64,000 nt of DNA from positions 62,001 to 126,000 of the IMG/VR virus record IMGVR_UViG_3300029319_000002, one strand, 5' to 3'. The stretch comes from a virus. Positions 30,801-64,000 of the stretch are shown piece after piece. Numbering within the stretch: the first letter of the stretch is position 1; each line of letters starts with the position of its first letter. The position numbers and the translations under genes were made by a program. The notes beneath the pieces are model-generated. The model was given only the letters and a program-made list of their open reading frames with translations, was not told the DNA's origin and did not search any database.

Positions 30801-33800
30801 TAACTTTGAAAATGATATTGTTTCCCATAAAGGAAAAAGAAATACTGATATATTAGATTTTAGACCTAGAGTCGCAGCTTACAATATTAATACTGCTGCA
30901 TACGGTCCATTTCATTTTCAAACTAGGGACTTCTCTAACAACAGTTCTGATATTACAGTTATTGATGATGAGACTATTACATTAAATTACTCATTCTATT
31001 TACCAAGAATTGATAAAATTTTCTTAGATAAAGAAGGTAATTTTAATTATAAAAAAGGCATTTCTTCCGTATCTCCTCAAGCACCATTCATTGAAAGTAA
31101 TTCAATGGACCTCTTTACATTATACTATCCAGCATACACATTTGATAAGGAGGATATTAATATTGATGAAACTACTCATAAGAGATATACGATGAAAGAT
31201 CTTAGAAAGATTGAGAGTAGAATCGAAAATCTTGAAAGATTTACTACATTATCTTTGTTAGAGTCTGAAATAAACACTTTAAAAGTAGTTGATGATCAAA
31301 CTGGAGTAGATAAATTTAAAACAGGATTCATTGTAGATGGTTTTATTGATGAGAATTCACAGAATACTATCACACCATATAATAATATTTCAATTGATAC
31401 CAGAATAGGTGAATTAAGACCAGCAACATATACTACAGCACTGGACTTAATTTGGGGATCAAAATCTTACATTGGTATTGGAACTGTTTCTGATCAAAAT
31501 ATCGATTTAAATACTGCTGTGGACTTAGAGTCCAACAATTTGAAAAAAACTGGAGATCTAATAACATTAGATTATACAACAACAACTTCTATTGACCAAC
31601 CCTATGCAAATAGCACATTAAAAATTAATGCAACCGGTATTTCTAATTATGTTGGTAATTTGAAACTATATCCATCAACAGATAGTTGGTTTGATCAAAA
31701 TAATTACAAAAAAACTACAAATTATCCTGATGATCCTTTCTATTATAAGAAATTATATGCAAAAGATGTAGAGAATAGTAATTTCTTTGAGAATAGATTC
31801 CATTCTTGGAAAGATTTTTGGACGGGTAGAAGTATTATTGAAGATAATAAAGTATATGATGGAAAAATTGATCCATATTTTTGGAAAAAAACCGAAAATC
31901 AAAGTTATTTACCACAAAAATCACCAATTCAAGCAATTACATTAAATTCTGAGGTTGAAACTCAAAATTCTAAGACGGTGGAGAAAAAATTATTTAATAA
32001 AAATGTTTCTCCTTACATGAGAAGAAGAAACTTTAGTTTTAATTGTGATTCCCTCAAACCATCCACAAAATTCTATGCATTTTTAGATAAAATTTCAGTT
32101 AAAAATTTAATTATACCAAAACTGCTTGAAATTGCCATGATTTCTGGATCATTCTCAGTAGGTGAGGATGTGGTTGGAACAATTTCTTCACAAGACAGTA
32201 AGCAATCCAATGTAAAAATTAAATTTAGACTTGCTACAACTAATCATAGAGATGGTACATATAATAATCCTGCAGGAATTTATGAAAGAAATCCATATAC
32301 TGGTGAAATTTTACAATCTAATTATTCTCAAACTTCTAGTATTCTGAATATAGATTTGAGTAGTTTGTCCTCTATCACACTTCCAGAATATTATGGATAT
32401 GTCGTAGCAAATATGACATTAGTCGGACAGACAAGTGGAGCAAAAGCAACAGTAAAAGAACCTAGATTAGTTAGCAATCAGAATGGATTACTTCAGGCAG
32501 CATTTTACATTTCCAAATATGAAGATGATAATAAAGTTTTCTTGACTGGAAAGAAAACTTTAAAAATAACTAGTGATGAATTTGATCAAGAATACTCTAG
32601 TGATCTTATAAGTTTTGCTGAAGTTGTTTTTTCAACATCGGGTCATATTCCCATTTATAAAAATGATATCTTATCAATTCGTAATTCTAATTTTGATAAA
32701 TTATCAGATAAAACTAATACTGCTTCTGGAGATTTTGTTCTAGATGTTTATAGAAATAATGAGTTTACTAAAAATATTCTATTAAATAATGGATTTGCAA
32801 ATCCATTAGCACAGTTATTTTCTGTCGATGAACCTTCAGGAATATTTGTAACTTCCATTGACATTTATTTTGCTCAAATTGACAGCAATGTGCCTGTAAC
32901 TCTTGATATAAAGACAGTTAAAAATAGAATTCCAACTTCAATCTCTATTCCCTTTTCTAAAAAAACATTATATCCCAATCAAATAACTTCATCTGCAGAT
33001 TCGAGTTTGCCAACTACGTTTGAATTTGATTCTCCAGTATTTTTAGAAGGTGGAAAAATATATTCCATCATGTTAAGTTCTGATTCTGAGTTATATGAAA
33101 TATATGCTTCCAACTTTACTAGTGAGTCACTAGATTTCTTAACTTCCTCTGAGGTTAATAAAATATCTTCTGTTGGTGAACTTTATGTTCCTGGTAATGT
33201 TACTCAAGTGAAAAAAGATACTATGAATCTGAAATTTAAACTCAATAAAGCTAAGTTTACTAATAATTCAGGTGCTCTAACATTATACAATCCTAGATTA
33301 GATTTTGGTAATAATCAAAGACCAACATTAACAACAAATCCTTTAGTATCTAAATCTAATAAACAAATTGTTGGACTCAATACACATATTGCTACAGCAG
33401 GTATTGCTACTTTAGGTTTACAATTAACTCAAAATGATACACAAACAGGATTTATTGTAGATACTTTAGGTATTGTTGGTGTAGGAACAAGTGGACTTAC
33501 AGTATCTAAAGTAGGTACAGGTCTAACTCCGACTTCGGGAATTGCAACATATAGTGGGGTTACTTTCACTTCTTTAAGTGGTAAAGGAACAGGATTAACT
33601 GGAGATGTAACAGTAGATAGTGGTTCTGTAAGTCTAATTAATATTACAAATGGTGGTGAGCAGTTCTCTCTAAATGAAGTTGTTACAGCAACATTAGGAA
33701 ATACGGGCATTGACTTCCAATTCTCTGTTGGAATTAGAACATCTATTTCCTCATTAGTTTTGGATGACATTCAAGGAACATTTAACAGTGTTAATAAATT

Positions 33801-35217
33801 GATCACTAAGAATGTTGCTACTGGAGCAACTACTGAAATGCCCGTAGAAATTATTCCCGATACAATTAGTCAATTTGAAGATGATGAGGATGGATTACAC
33901 TTCCTTGTTAACCATAAAAATCATGGACAATATTCTAGAAACACTAATAAAGTTACAATGTCTAATATTGAAAGTGACTTAGCAGTAACAACATTAGCTT
34001 CTGATATAACTGCTACTTCTACATCATTAACTATTCTTTCAACTGATACTGATTTTGGAAATTTTGAAAATATTGGTATTGGATCAACTAATCTTGGATA
34101 TATTAAAATTGGTGAAGAGATTATTTCTTACGGATCTATTAACGGAAATGATTTGTCAGATTTAGTTAGAGGTGTTGATTCTACAGTTGCCACTTCTCAC
34201 CCATCCGGTGATTATATCTCTAAGTATGAAGTCAATGGAGTCTCATTAAGAAGAATGAATAAGAGTTTTGTTCTTAGTGATGTAACAACAAATAAAGTTA
34301 ATACTGGAAATCAGTATTATTTGAAAGTTGATATGACCTCTAATGGAACAAATAGATCCGGAACTGGTGGATATCCCAAACTATTCTTTGAAAATTCAAA
34401 AGATATTGGTGGATCAAAAGTTGAAACAACTCAAAATATAACATTCAACTCAATGACACCAAATATTCAAACTTTTATCCCAAGTTCTTGTAATATAAAT
34501 GCCAGTGTAAGGACAGTAACCGGAACTTCTGAAGATGGAGCAGAAACTTCCTATATGGATAAAGGATATGAACCTATTTCTCTAAATCAAACTAATGATT
34601 TTAATACCCCAAGATTGATTGCTTCTAGAATTAATGAAAATGAATACTTAACCAATTTACCTGGAAAAAAATCATTTACATTAAGACTTGATATGTCGTC
34701 TGAAGATGAAAATCTGTCTCCTGTTGTTGATTTAGACAGATGTAGTGTAATTTTTGTTAATAATAGTATTAATAATCCTATTGAAAATTATAAAACTGAT
34801 CCCAGAGTTAATTCATTAGATACTGATCCTCATGAAGCAGTTTATATTTCTAAAGTAGTTAATCTCCAAATTCCTTCAAATGGACTTAAAGTAATATTTG
34901 ATGCGTATAAACCTTTAGGTACTGATATTAGAGTTCTTCATAGATTAATTGGAACTGAAGAATCTTCCGAGAGATTTACACTATTCCCCGGATATAATAA
35001 TCTTGACATTATTAATAATGTGATTAATGAAAAAGATAATGATGGATCATCGGATTATTTTGTTAATTTTAGTAATACAAATGAATTTAAGGAGCATGAA
35101 TTTACTATTCAAAACACAGAATCATTTTCTTCCTATGTAATTAAAATTGTCATGACTTCTACAAATTCATCTATTGTTCCTAAAATTAGGAATTTGCGTG
35201 TCATTTCTCTAACATGA
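27817..35217 (+). CDS. Large DUF4815-type baseplate or fibre protein (2466 aa)
   Basis: The N-terminus (NSFPYFDDFDESKNYKKVLF, then PGVSVQARELTTLQSSIQNQ) is the DUF4815 pattern, found in structural proteins of large marine phages in the gp9/gp10 position. Further on lie a short coiled coil (about residues 1125-1150, IESRIENLERFTTLSLLESE), a module with IGEEIISY and LVRGVDSTVATSHPSGD (about 2100-2130), and a C-terminal segment of short strands. No signal peptide. Probably a wedge-attached fibre or tail-pin subunit; exact T4 equivalence cannot be shown. It overlaps the next gene by four bases. Confidence 0.75.
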   Translation: MSETLNLNSFPYFDDFDESKNYKKVLFKPGVSVQARELTTLQSSIQNQLEAFSDTAFFDGQIVEGGSLNYIPKLDYVLLEDTFNGIPVSSYINNFNNLVLIGELTGIQARVISVVSAEKSEKGKTTLYVKYLSSNSTDFTEKTFRDSEQLITQTSVNIGTTVFFENTPMAKCVSTNATGLGSAIKLNPGKTYIRGFFVDFDEKLLILDQYETEPSYKVGFEIDEKIITSLEDSSLNDNARGFSNFSAPGADRLQISCELGKKTIDDLDTDTFVEILRFENGILKYKSPERSYNFIEDELARRTYDESGDYIVDDFDVQIDETLNDLKNSNGLYLDTEKTYKNNEPSESLVSVSISPGKAYVRGYEIEKISNTIFEVEKARDSKLIEDSTIPVNFGKKVIVNNINGLPNTGITTYYAELRNRRKDGDHLSGSGDIVGYGRIYDNKLRESYSNNSSEQDLYLYDLQFLSEITVSSNIVSYQVGSLLEGKNSGAIGYIAGTDGLETDPTGVSTFTVYRVSGNFVPNEPYHIDGILDARLIKTVTNFSFDDTKSIKMVGSGVTYTADLLLTNETQLGDFGNTYNITARTSETGISTITSTDNRFTRVRVNDIIKYTLPGISTSFPTLNRVVSVNTAENKITVSQVEDVSNFCDGDLPSAATTVNDLVIARPGMEVSSDPGLFASIPEELVSDIDIDSSILSVRKEYNVNIANSSGTVNEGDPNFAFVGYGIDKYILIYSDGTIEPLTSQKIVLSGSSRQLDLKSLTKTTDTGATLIATLDKRNLTTTGKTIRGESAFVSRSTSPISGSGKDTLNDGLTPDVQGKYGTRVQDRDICLNHPDVIRVNAIFESENLTDPLTPTLTLTNNTSSLIESIPGEEIVGESSGAVAKVVDNLPLQTNTTTKVNFVYLNSKRFNIDEKVTFKSTNISGNIQSLTFGSRDVTSNFSFDSGQRDDYYDFGKIVRNKTGYVPAKRLLVIFDRYELSAGTNNIVNYDSYAFTNFENDIVSHKGKRNTDILDFRPRVAAYNINTAAYGPFHFQTRDFSNNSSDITVIDDETITLNYSFYLPRIDKIFLDKEGNFNYKKGISSVSPQAPFIESNSMDLFTLYYPAYTFDKEDINIDETTHKRYTMKDLRKIESRIENLERFTTLSLLESEINTLKVVDDQTGVDKFKTGFIVDGFIDENSQNTITPYNNISIDTRIGELRPATYTTALDLIWGSKSYIGIGTVSDQNIDLNTAVDLESNNLKKTGDLITLDYTTTTSIDQPYANSTLKINATGISNYVGNLKLYPSTDSWFDQNNYKKTTNYPDDPFYYKKLYAKDVENSNFFENRFHSWKDFWTGRSIIEDNKVYDGKIDPYFWKKTENQSYLPQKSPIQAITLNSEVETQNSKTVEKKLFNKNVSPYMRRRNFSFNCDSLKPSTKFYAFLDKISVKNLIIPKLLEIAMISGSFSVGEDVVGTISSQDSKQSNVKIKFRLATTNHRDGTYNNPAGIYERNPYTGEILQSNYSQTSSILNIDLSSLSSITLPEYYGYVVANMTLVGQTSGAKATVKEPRLVSNQNGLLQAAFYISKYEDDNKVFLTGKKTLKITSDEFDQEYSSDLISFAEVVFSTSGHIPIYKNDILSIRNSNFDKLSDKTNTASGDFVLDVYRNNEFTKNILLNNGFANPLAQLFSVDEPSGIFVTSIDIYFAQIDSNVPVTLDIKTVKNRIPTSISIPFSKKTLYPNQITSSADSSLPTTFEFDSPVFLEGGKIYSIMLSSDSELYEIYASNFTSESLDFLTSSEVNKISSVGELYVPGNVTQVKKDTMNLKFKLNKAKFTNNSGALTLYNPRLDFGNNQRPTLTTNPLVSKSNKQIVGLNTHIATAGIATLGLQLTQNDTQTGFIVDTLGIVGVGTSGLTVSKVGTGLTPTSGIATYSGVTFTSLSGKGTGLTGDVTVDSGSVSLINITNGGEQFSLNEVVTATLGNTGIDFQFSVGIRTSISSLVLDDIQGTFNSVNKLITKNVATGATTEMPVEIIPDTISQFEDDEDGLHFLVNHKNHGQYSRNTNKVTMSNIESDLAVTTLASDITATSTSLTILSTDTDFGNFENIGIGSTNLGYIKIGEEIISYGSINGNDLSDLVRGVDSTVATSHPSGDYISKYEVNGVSLRRMNKSFVLSDVTTNKVNTGNQYYLKVDMTSNGTNRSGTGGYPKLFFENSKDIGGSKVETTQNITFNSMTPNIQTFIPSSCNINASVRTVTGTSEDGAETSYMDKGYEPISLNQTNDFNTPRLIASRINENEYLTNLPGKKSFTLRLDMSSEDENLSPVVDLDRCSVIFVNNSINNPIENYKTDPRVNSLDTDPHEAVYISKVVNLQIPSNGLKVIFDAYKPLGTDIRVLHRLIGTEESSERFTLFPGYNNLDIINNVINEKDNDGSSDYFVNFSNTNEFKEHEFTIQNTESFSSYVIKIVMTSTNSSIVPKIRNLRVISLT

Positions 35218-62131: not shown

Positions 62132-62175
62132 ACTGTCCACTCCACCCCTGACTCTGCCCTATTCTGCTCTATACT
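62132..62175 (+). promoter_or_regulatory. Promoter-like unit 6 before the CobT-like gene
   Basis: ACTGTCCAC (62132-62140) resembles the upstream box at 6640. The sigma70-like core is CTGACT (62148-62153), 16 bases, TATACT (62170-62175). The -10 region is diverged from the ATCGTGTATTCTAT form. A clear AGAGGAG lies 6-12 bases before the ATG at 62199. Confidence 0.45.
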
Positions 62176-62198: not shown

Positions 62199-64000
62199 AT
62201 GTCAGTCAACTACGAAATCAAGTCTCAACTTGCTAAACTGCTTGCTACTGAGGATCTTCTGGTAGAGCACAAGAAAGTCGAGACGGCATCTTTCAATGTT
62301 GATACTAGGGTTCTGACACTTCCAATGTGGGATAAGGCATCTAATGGTGTGTATGATCTTCTGGTAGCACATGAAGTTGGTCATGCATTGTTCACTCCAA
62401 ACATTGATTGGACAGAAAAGGTGAATATTCCTCCGATGTTTGTGAACATTGTTGAGGATGCTCGTATTGAAAAACTGATGAAACGCAAATACGCTGGTCT
62501 TCCTAAAACATTCTATCGTGGTTATAAAGAACTTAATGATGAAGATTTCTTCTCCATCGAAGAGCATGGTGTTGATAAGTATGGTCTTGCAGACAAAGTA
62601 AATCTCTACTTTAAGATTGGCAATTTTGTTGATATTTCTTTTGATAGTATTGAAGAAACTCATATTGTTAGTTTAATTAGTAATGCAGAAACTTTTGATG
62701 AAGTTCTAGAAGCATCCGAGATTCTTTACAAGTATTGTAAAAATGAAAAAGAAGAACAATCCAAAGTAAAAAATCTTGATGATCATGAGAAAGAACATGG
62801 TTCTTCTTCGGGAGAAACTGAAAACACCGATGACTCAGAATCTGAGCAAGACTCCGATCAAAGTTTCGATCAGGATACTGAAGAGATGGATGAGGATACT
62901 ACTGATAAAGAAATGACTGATGCTGAGCAAGAATCAACAACTTCTGATGAACCTGAAGTTGAAACAATGAACTCTCTTGATCAGAAGTTGAAGGATCTCA
63001 GTACTCTTGAGGGTTATGAAACTCAATACCTTGAACTTCCTGAGATTGATCTTGACAACTTCATCATCTCCAACAGTAAAATTCATGGAGAACTTGATGA
63101 TTTCTTCAAAACTGGGGAAACTGATTTTGATGATGTTGACGGCAAATATAATGAGTTCAAAAAGTCTGCACAGAAAGAAGTGAACTATCTTGTAAAAGAA
63201 TTTGAATGCAAGAAGTCAGCAGATGCCTACGCACGATCTTTTACATCACGCACCGGAGTTCTTGATACATCCAAACTTCATACTTACAAATATAATGAAG
63301 ACCTTTTCAAGAAAGTAAATATTGTTCCTGATGGTAAGAATCATGGACTAATCTTCATTATTGATTGGTCTGGATCTATGGGTCATTACATGATGGATAC
63401 TATCAAACAACTTTTTAATCTTGTTTGGTTCTGTCAAAAGGTCAAAATTCCTTTTGATGTTTATGCATTCTCCAATTCATATAAGTGTGTTGAGTATGAT
63501 GAAGATGGTAACAGTGTATATCCCAAACAACATCATGATCGTGAGGTAGGTAAGTTTTATGTTCCTGATGATGTTTGTTTGATCAATCTTCTCACTGGTG
63601 GATTGAACAACAAAAACTTTGAGAAACAGATGCTGAATGTTTGGAGGAATGTATACGCAATGCGTTTTTATGCAGGATTCCAACCTTATCACCGTCTCAG
63701 TCTTGGTGGAACTCCTCTGAATGAGGCATTGGTTTCTTTACATCAGATTATTCCACAATTCAAGAATAGTAATGGAGTACAGAAAGTTCAGTGTATTGTT
63801 CTTACTGATGGTGAAGGTGGTCACCTGAGGACTTTCAAGAAAGTGAAGTCATACTATGATGGATCTGACGATATTCGTCCTTGGACTATTTCCTATAATT
63901 CATATCTACGCAATCGTAAAACTGGTTATGTATATAAAGTCCCTGAACGGTTTAACGAGTTCACTGATATGCTATTGACAGATCTTCGACAATCATTCAA
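62199..64000 (+). CDS. CobT-like metallopeptidase/VWA protein, 3'-truncated by the window edge
   Basis: The frame from ATG 62199 (ribosome binding site AGAGGAG) runs without a stop to the window end, giving 600 residues. HEVGHALF (His58-Glu59-x-x-His62) is a zinc metallopeptidase site, with a likely third ligand in NIVEDARIE (Glu86). About residues 185-265 are a very acidic Ser/Glu/Asp-rich linker. A von Willebrand A domain begins with the MIDAS motif DWSGSMG (Asp389, Ser391, Ser393), followed by LSLGGTPLNEAL and VLTDGEGG. This layout (acidic linker then VWA) is that of CobT and other partners of MoxR/CobS AAA ATPases. Confidence 0.88.
   Translation, partial: MSVNYEIKSQLAKLLATEDLLVEHKKVETASFNVDTRVLTLPMWDKASNGVYDLLVAHEVGHALFTPNIDWTEKVNIPPMFVNIVEDARIEKLMKRKYAGLPKTFYRGYKELNDEDFFSIEEHGVDKYGLADKVNLYFKIGNFVDISFDSIEETHIVSLISNAETFDEVLEASEILYKYCKNEKEEQSKVKNLDDHEKEHGSSSGETENTDDSESEQDSDQSFDQDTEEMDEDTTDKEMTDAEQESTTSDEPEVETMNSLDQKLKDLSTLEGYETQYLELPEIDLDNFIISNSKIHGELDDFFKTGETDFDDVDGKYNEFKKSAQKEVNYLVKEFECKKSADAYARSFTSRTGVLDTSKLHTYKYNEDLFKKVNIVPDGKNHGLIFIIDWSGSMGHYMMDTIKQLFNLVWFCQKVKIPFDVYAFSNSYKCVEYDEDGNSVYPKQHHDREVGKFYVPDDVCLINLLTGGLNNKNFEKQMLNVWRNVYAMRFYAGFQPYHRLSLGGTPLNEALVSLHQIIPQFKNSNGVQKVQCIVLTDGEGGHLRTFKKVKSYYDGSDDIRPWTISYNSYLRNRKTGYVYKVPERFNEFTDMLLTDLRQSF

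Follow-up and report, generated by a model that had tools for sequence, protein, structure and literature searches.

The window analyzed here, 64,000 nucleotides long, comprises bases 62001-126000 of the 196,048-b ocean-virus record IMGVR_UViG_3300029319_000002 (G000). An open reading frame that begins with an ATG at 62199 on the + strand runs past the window end, and reading into the source record gives a full gene of 704 aa ending at the equivalent of window position 64313 (stop ending at G000:C1:126313), so that the final 313 bases and the 104 C-terminal residues that they add lie outside the window. The protein consists of an N-terminal HExxH domain, an acidic linker, a helical segment, and a VWA domain with a complete metal ion-dependent adhesion site (MIDAS; D389-S391-S393-T505-D537). 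It matches phrog_459 ('peptidase') with an E value of 3.8e-258 over residues 3-704, its full length, and its gene is a typical representative of an already known phage family. The initial annotation had placed the rest of the gene, and any ATPase, beyond the window, and the AAA+ partner that it proposed to look for was found there, with a CobS-like gene starting 450 bases downstream. The features of the locus are as follows.

62199..64000, continuing beyond the window, + strand: VWA/metallopeptidase gene, phrog_459 'peptidase', T4-GC 146 family (sequence, profile search)
62199..62774, + strand: N-terminal zincin-like domain, residues 1-192 (AlphaFold2 pLDDT 88, pTM 0.84; nearest solved structures are zinc metallopeptidases)
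62370..62384, + strand: HEVGH, predicted zinc-binding/catalytic motif, residues 58-62 (invariance)
62445..62471, + strand: NIVEDARIE, residues 83-91, with Glu86 the likely third zinc ligand on a second helix (N83, E86, and D87 invariant)
62766..62963, + strand: acidic low-complexity linker, residues about 190-255 (sequence; pLDDT below 50 at 190-250)
63339..64000, past the window end, + strand: VWA domain from residue about 381 (structure model; matches to NorD and MDN1-MIDAS, below)
63363..63377, + strand: MIDAS motif DWSGS, with D389, S391, and S393 (invariant)
63711..63713, + strand: MIDAS Thr505 (invariant; the corresponding VWA part of cellular CobT is NIDGE)
63807..63809, + strand: MIDAS Asp537 (invariant)
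G000:C1:126764-127855 (= L003:2765-3856), + strand: CobS-like AAA+ ATPase, 363 aa, with Walker A GLSGNGKT and Walker B LLLDEID

Two further matches within the protein were rejected: a second HExxH (HEKEH at residue 196), which is a chance match sitting in the acidic linker, and a Pfam 'Ribosomal_L23' match at residues 662-685, which is far below cut-off.

The genes upstream resemble gp47, gp46, and a 2OG-oxygenase, and those downstream resemble gp45 and gp44, as named from translations of the open reading frames (ORFs) and synteny with P-SSM2. The same gene order is found in the T4-like cyanophages P-SSM2 and P-HM2, where the T4-GC 146 'peptidase' accompanies T4-GC 150 cobS; the window protein is about 33-52% identical to those of the named cyanophages listed, and otherwise nothing essential differs. 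Two small ORFs of 53 and 57 aa lie between the VWA gene and the AAA+ gene. The 57-aa ORF, which had no family match, and a terminator-like hairpin ahead of the AAA+ gene (L003:2700-2722) together separate the two genes at L003:2518-2722. Farther downstream, an ORF judged by eye to be SpeD-like (S-adenosylmethionine decarboxylase; L003:5915-6340) lies between the gp45- and gp44-like genes. A promoter candidate, CTGACT-16-TATACT around 62148-62175, was set aside; promoter-like sites numbered 7 versus 10.5 in shuffles, and since they are no commoner than in shuffles, we make no claim on expression timing. The late-promoter motif CTATAAATA matched once within the window, which is chance level, and no PADLOC defence family was matched.

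Metal sites and predicted folds

The initial annotation had described an HExxH zinc site with Glu86 as a likely third ligand, an acidic linker, and a VWA domain with an intact MIDAS (DWSGS). Each of these elements held up, and the key residues proved invariant. H58, E59, and H62 are unchanged in all 73 unique T4-like sequences that contain the region, as are N83, E86, and D87 in 74 of 74 T4-like sequences and D389, S391, S393, T505, and D537 in 75 of 75 unique ones; the LxGTPL motif at residues 502-507 is likewise invariant across the cyanophage family. A set of 51 N-domains, whose identity to the window protein goes as low as 18% and which takes in PhiR41_1-type relatives at about 20%, leaves just 11 of 192 positions without variation (L15, P42, H58, E59, H62, L64, N83, E86, D87, E91, and G100). 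The probability that H58, E59, H62, and E86 would all fall among them by chance is 6e-6, and conservation of the putative HExxH-plus-Glu site therefore exceeds chance.

AlphaFold2 predicts for the N-domain alone three short strands, an HExxH helix at residues 49-65, a Glu helix at 79-97, and further helices, an arrangement with HExxH and a conserved Glu on the next helix that is of the gluzincin type. When residues 1-192 were compared to solved structures with VIA-align, ArdC ranked at the top (Z 7.5, 122 residues, 4.2 A), followed by selecase, jannalysin, and abylysin (Z 6.4-6.7), and later rows were mostly zinc peptidases by title; Z values of 6-7.5 are by themselves possible from a common arrangement. 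Foldseek matched the N-domain to minigluzincins with a probability of 0.96-1.00 for the best chains and weak E values of about 0.1-0.3 (best, 0.09), and the best E value for the full model was also weak at 0.0048. A sequence search against solved structures gave no match. In its predicted structure, the N-domain thus resembles a zincin fold of minigluzincin-like type, with the E values being weak.

The VWA half, taken from a 600-aa model with a pLDDT of 71, ranked NorD first (9qh6_G, Z 10.1, 186 residues, 3.6 A) and midasin second (MDN1-MIDAS, 8ql1_G, Z 9.7). All six best rows (Z 9.2-10.1) are VWA partners of MoxR-like AAA+ ATPases, with the next row, Ku, at 7.9. The suggestion that the protein has the architecture of a MoxR/CobS partner is therefore supported by the modeled folds of both halves. 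The adjoining gene fits the same class: its product matches AAA_5 (63.7 bits), with a weak CbbQ_C match, falls in phrog_249 ('porphyrin biosynthesis') by profile search, and retains invariant Walker A (G115-K121), Walker B (D181/E182), Asn224, and Arg248/Arg308 residues at sensor and Arg positions. An AAA_5/MoxR-type ATPase thus adjoins a VWA protein whose DxSxS-T-D MIDAS is complete. Sequence and prediction together establish the architecture, the invariance of both metal sites, the adjacency of the ATPase, and the fold matches.

Pairing across phages and relatives in cells

The VWA protein was detected in 463 of 50,697 phage records and CobS, counted where the hit spans 80% or more of the query, in 459; the two lists were compared by count, and the counts for the main organism groups are the same. 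Among 80 IMG/VR loci, the ATPase lies downstream of the VWA gene in 70; in the remaining ten, the contig breaks off within 1.4 kb. Of the 54 loci that extend at least 1.5 kb downstream, every one carries the pair. The VWA and CobS-like pair is the rule in T4-like cyanophages. Both outcomes by which the initial annotation would have been refuted, a genome lacking any AAA partner or partner genes that never co-occur, are contradicted by the data. The pair stays intact despite differing surroundings in S-CREM2, Pelagibacter phage HTVC008M, and Stenotrophomonas phage DLP6, and at one further locus (L100) the two genes are together in reversed order. For two matches to the AAA query, Staphylococcus phage K and Sinorhizobium phage phiM5, no VWA/HExxH protein was present in the neighboring ORFs checked.

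In Pseudoalteromonas phage vB_Psh_XG4 (L174:3851-6108), the VWA and zinc-peptidase parts are separate adjacent ORFs, VWA first, followed by an ATPase that appears frameshifted and then a gp45-like gene; this record is flagged UNVERIFIED. The separate ORFs in swapped order suggest that the three parts function jointly even without being fused.

The cluster C cyanophage S-CREM2 has been said to lack cobS (PMC10665884). Contrary to that statement, its gp55 and gp56 ('ribosome assembly protein' and 'MoxR-like ATPase'; L085:4998-8252) are the VWA/CobS-like pair. The S-CREM2 virion proteome lists 52 proteins (PMC10665884 Table 3), and because the pair (genes at 31017-34271) is absent from that list, it is probably not a structural part, although an assembly helper would leave the particle anyway.

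Among 194 cyanobacterial genomes, the VWA gene was found in only one, on a phage-like contig in a single-cell genome (G001). Relatives of the AAA partner in cellular genome contigs are mostly on phage contigs in MAGs and single-cell genomes, together with PhiR41_1-type elements. CobS-like genes of the PhiR41_1 type occur in Kluyvera, Buttiauxella, and Photobacterium genomes (L106, L107, and L108); in L107 and L108 the partner with an intact zinc site is also present, probably in prophages or phage-plasmids. The T4-like pair is also present on contigs of 189 and 188 kb (L094 and L095) from a Prochlorococcus single-cell genome and a Nonlabens xiamenensis assembly, which are probably phage genomes left in the assemblies.

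Relation to cellular CobT and CobS

Cellular CobT/CobS (TIGR01651, TIGR01650) shares with the window pair the combination of AAA+ and VWA proteins, an acidic linker, and the third-Glu helix, but it lacks the zinc site, carries NIDGE, and works with CobN. Alignment of 45 cellular CobTs from Pseudomonadota showed no HExxH at the corresponding position in any of them, whereas the third Glu is retained in all 45 (METARCEA, VEQARVEA) and the VWA domain always carries NIDGE, where the cyanophage family has LxGTPL instead. The sole HExxH match among them (L146) was discarded, as it lies in upstream sequence outside the domain.

Other viral 'CobT/CobS' pairs (Liu et al. 2021, PMC8651126; PhiR41_1, SSU5, RHEph10, ICP2-like, Gordonia, and Haloarcula) likewise combine AAA+ and VWA proteins, usually with an intact HExxH. 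The motif reads HEVAH..NALED in every aligned PhiR41_1-type member, HEVAH or HEVGH..NIVED in Rhizobium phages, HEGCH..NILED in Bacteroides phage BS162P1, HEIGH or HEISH with ED downstream in Gordonia phages, and HECGH..NAAED in the Haloarcula viruses HVTV-2 and HCTV-1; an ICP2-like Vibrio phage has the variant HECYH with a less clear third ligand. Judged by these motifs, a putative zinc site is kept in most sampled viral 'CobT's, in viruses of hosts as different as rhizobia and haloarchaea. In two Nickieviruses, the His ligands are gone while the helix Glu remains (SEISK..NPLES). Their CobT-like proteins (L088:2454-4538 and L182:1474-3558) represent a naturally inactivated form next to a CobS-like gene.

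The initial annotation had called the protein CobT-like, which holds as distant kinship; the protein itself fails the CobT models, with no match to TIGR01651 or PF06213 (a Caulobacter control was positive). Direct profile comparison of the window family to CobT is weak (probability 5.9; N-domains, E 0.0088), and a CobT N-domain profile finds none of the phage proteins. The window family does connect to the PhiR41_1 type through the N-domain (profile E 2.6e-6; N-domains alone, 1.9e-8), and tblastn from one PhiR41_1-type protein reaches the Syn19 'peptidase' (E 2e-5). The PhiR41_1 type in turn connects to cellular CobT through the VWA domain (E 1.5e-20); PhiR41_1-type and rhizobial proteins have a CobT-like VWA with NVDGE versus the GGTPL MIDAS Thr of the window family. 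The Pfam CobT model matches 6 of the 51 N-domains (best, 1e-21), most likely the six PhiR41_1-type ones by number and kind. Sequence comparison thus points to kinship that is distant and stepwise via PhiR41_1-type intermediates. In a VWA-domain tree with long deep branches, many open forks, and an arbitrary root, cellular CobT forms one clade amid viral ones, and two changes of the zinc label are needed, separately for CobT and the Nickieviruses. We infer that the direction of change was loss.

Chelatase, chaperone, or protease

Published readings of the pair contradict each other. Liu et al. 2021 (PMC8651126) described the protein of tailed viruses as 'CobT, mistakenly annotated as a peptidase', serving B12, whereas Iyer et al. 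2021 (PMC7824862), writing on group 2.2 jumbo phages, described a pair of MoxR and a vWA protein that carries a metallopeptidase at its N terminus, and proposed a role in virion assembly with proteolysis. The protease/remodelling idea is therefore already in print, and the jumbo phage pair, for which that paper cites ASV44728.2, is described with the three-part architecture and the reading given here, although PMC7824862 covers jumbo phages and the window record is 196 kb. Experiments on the pair were not found in the full text of open-licence papers. Our tests favor the MoxR-vWA plus metallopeptidase reading.

If the pair were a viral CobST cobaltochelatase, it would stand in for the CobS/CobT that the host lacks and, together with the host's CobN, increase cobalamin production, of use for instance to ribonucleotide reductase. 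This reading is in print for tailed viruses generally, the distant CobT homology through intermediates is real, and picocyanobacteria lack CobT (0 of 101) and have two CobN/ChlH-family genes in each of the two genomes checked. With a CobN-type gene present in the hosts, a chelatase role keeps some probability. We nevertheless consider it unlikely, since the window protein fails the CobT models, the AAA partner scores 69.4 bits against a cut-off of 558.55 for TIGR01650 (CobS), no CobN was found in the phage record, and the zinc site that is invariant here is missing from every cellular CobT sampled. Taken together, these observations argue against the often-repeated B12 role and for protease/remodelling activity. 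A MoxR/VWA chaperone for metal insertion or assembly, in which the HExxH-plus-Glu site stores, senses, or delivers metal or is structural, is favored by the nearest VWA structures, which belong to NorD of the NorQD iron-insertion complex (PMC13036017), and by cellular CobT, which retains the Glu helix but not the His ligands. The pair also persists in Nickieviruses although its site is broken there, which indicates that catalysis is dispensable to the machine in some lineages, and even an invariant HExxH could bind metal without cleavage. However, Glu59, the general base, shows the same invariance as the ligands, and a site that only stores metal would have no need of it; in addition, the modeled N-domain fold matches true peptidases, making a purely chaperone role quite improbable.

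We therefore favor, with a probability of roughly 70%, the reading that the pair is an ATP-gated machine that remodels some complex of phage or host proteins and carries out limited proteolysis on it, rather than one that inserts cobalt into B12. The initial annotation's proposal of a MoxR-type machine with a protease site instead of cobalamin synthesis is supported in this form, while complex formation, catalysis, and a protein as the substrate are what we infer. The CobS-like protein would be a presumably hexameric AAA+ ATPase of the MoxR class, with the window protein as the VWA co-factor of this ring; NorQ/NorD, CbbQ/CbbO, and midasin likewise join a MoxR-class AAA+ ATPase with a VWA partner. 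In NorQD, the VWA domain inserts a finger into the ATPase pore and is rotated by ATP hydrolysis, which also stretches the linker to the N-domain (PMC13036017). As in NorQ/NorD, the MIDAS could capture the target or couple to the ring, and ATP hydrolysis would twist or stretch the window protein via its acidic linker. By analogy with NorQD, this flexible linker may bring the zinc peptidase to the bound target or expose it there. The predicted N-domain would be an intact minigluzincin-type domain with HExxH and Glu, unlike the corresponding parts of RavA's partner ViaA and of cellular CobT. NorD likewise is not known to have a zinc peptidase domain. Proteolysis or remodelling would take place during infection, on a phage or host protein complex, and the location between gp46/47 and gp45/44 suggests a target in replication, recombination, late transcription, or a virion-assembly intermediate.

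Extended to the whole group, the hypothesis would be that all viral 'CobT/CobS' pairs are ATP-driven zinc-protease machines, that cellular CobST is a branch of this VWA/AAA family that lost the protease site, and that cyanophage cobS, among the viral 'vitamin B12' auxiliary genes reported most frequently, is unrelated to B12, a claim for which we see the odds as even. The function of the family, rather than the single gene, is the part that deserves attention. The cobS gene is regarded as one of the core metabolic genes of T4-like cyanophages, and ecologists use it as a marker for viral vitamin B12 metabolism. That B12 reading is probably wrong if the invariant partner of cobS is a zinc protease, unlike cellular CobT. 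Because the site is kept in most viral pairs and absent from cellular CobT, the question can be tested by a single point mutation, E59Q. If the protease/remodelling reading is true, the pair would be a virus-specific protein-processing machine shared by haloarchaeal viruses and phages of a wide range of bacteria.
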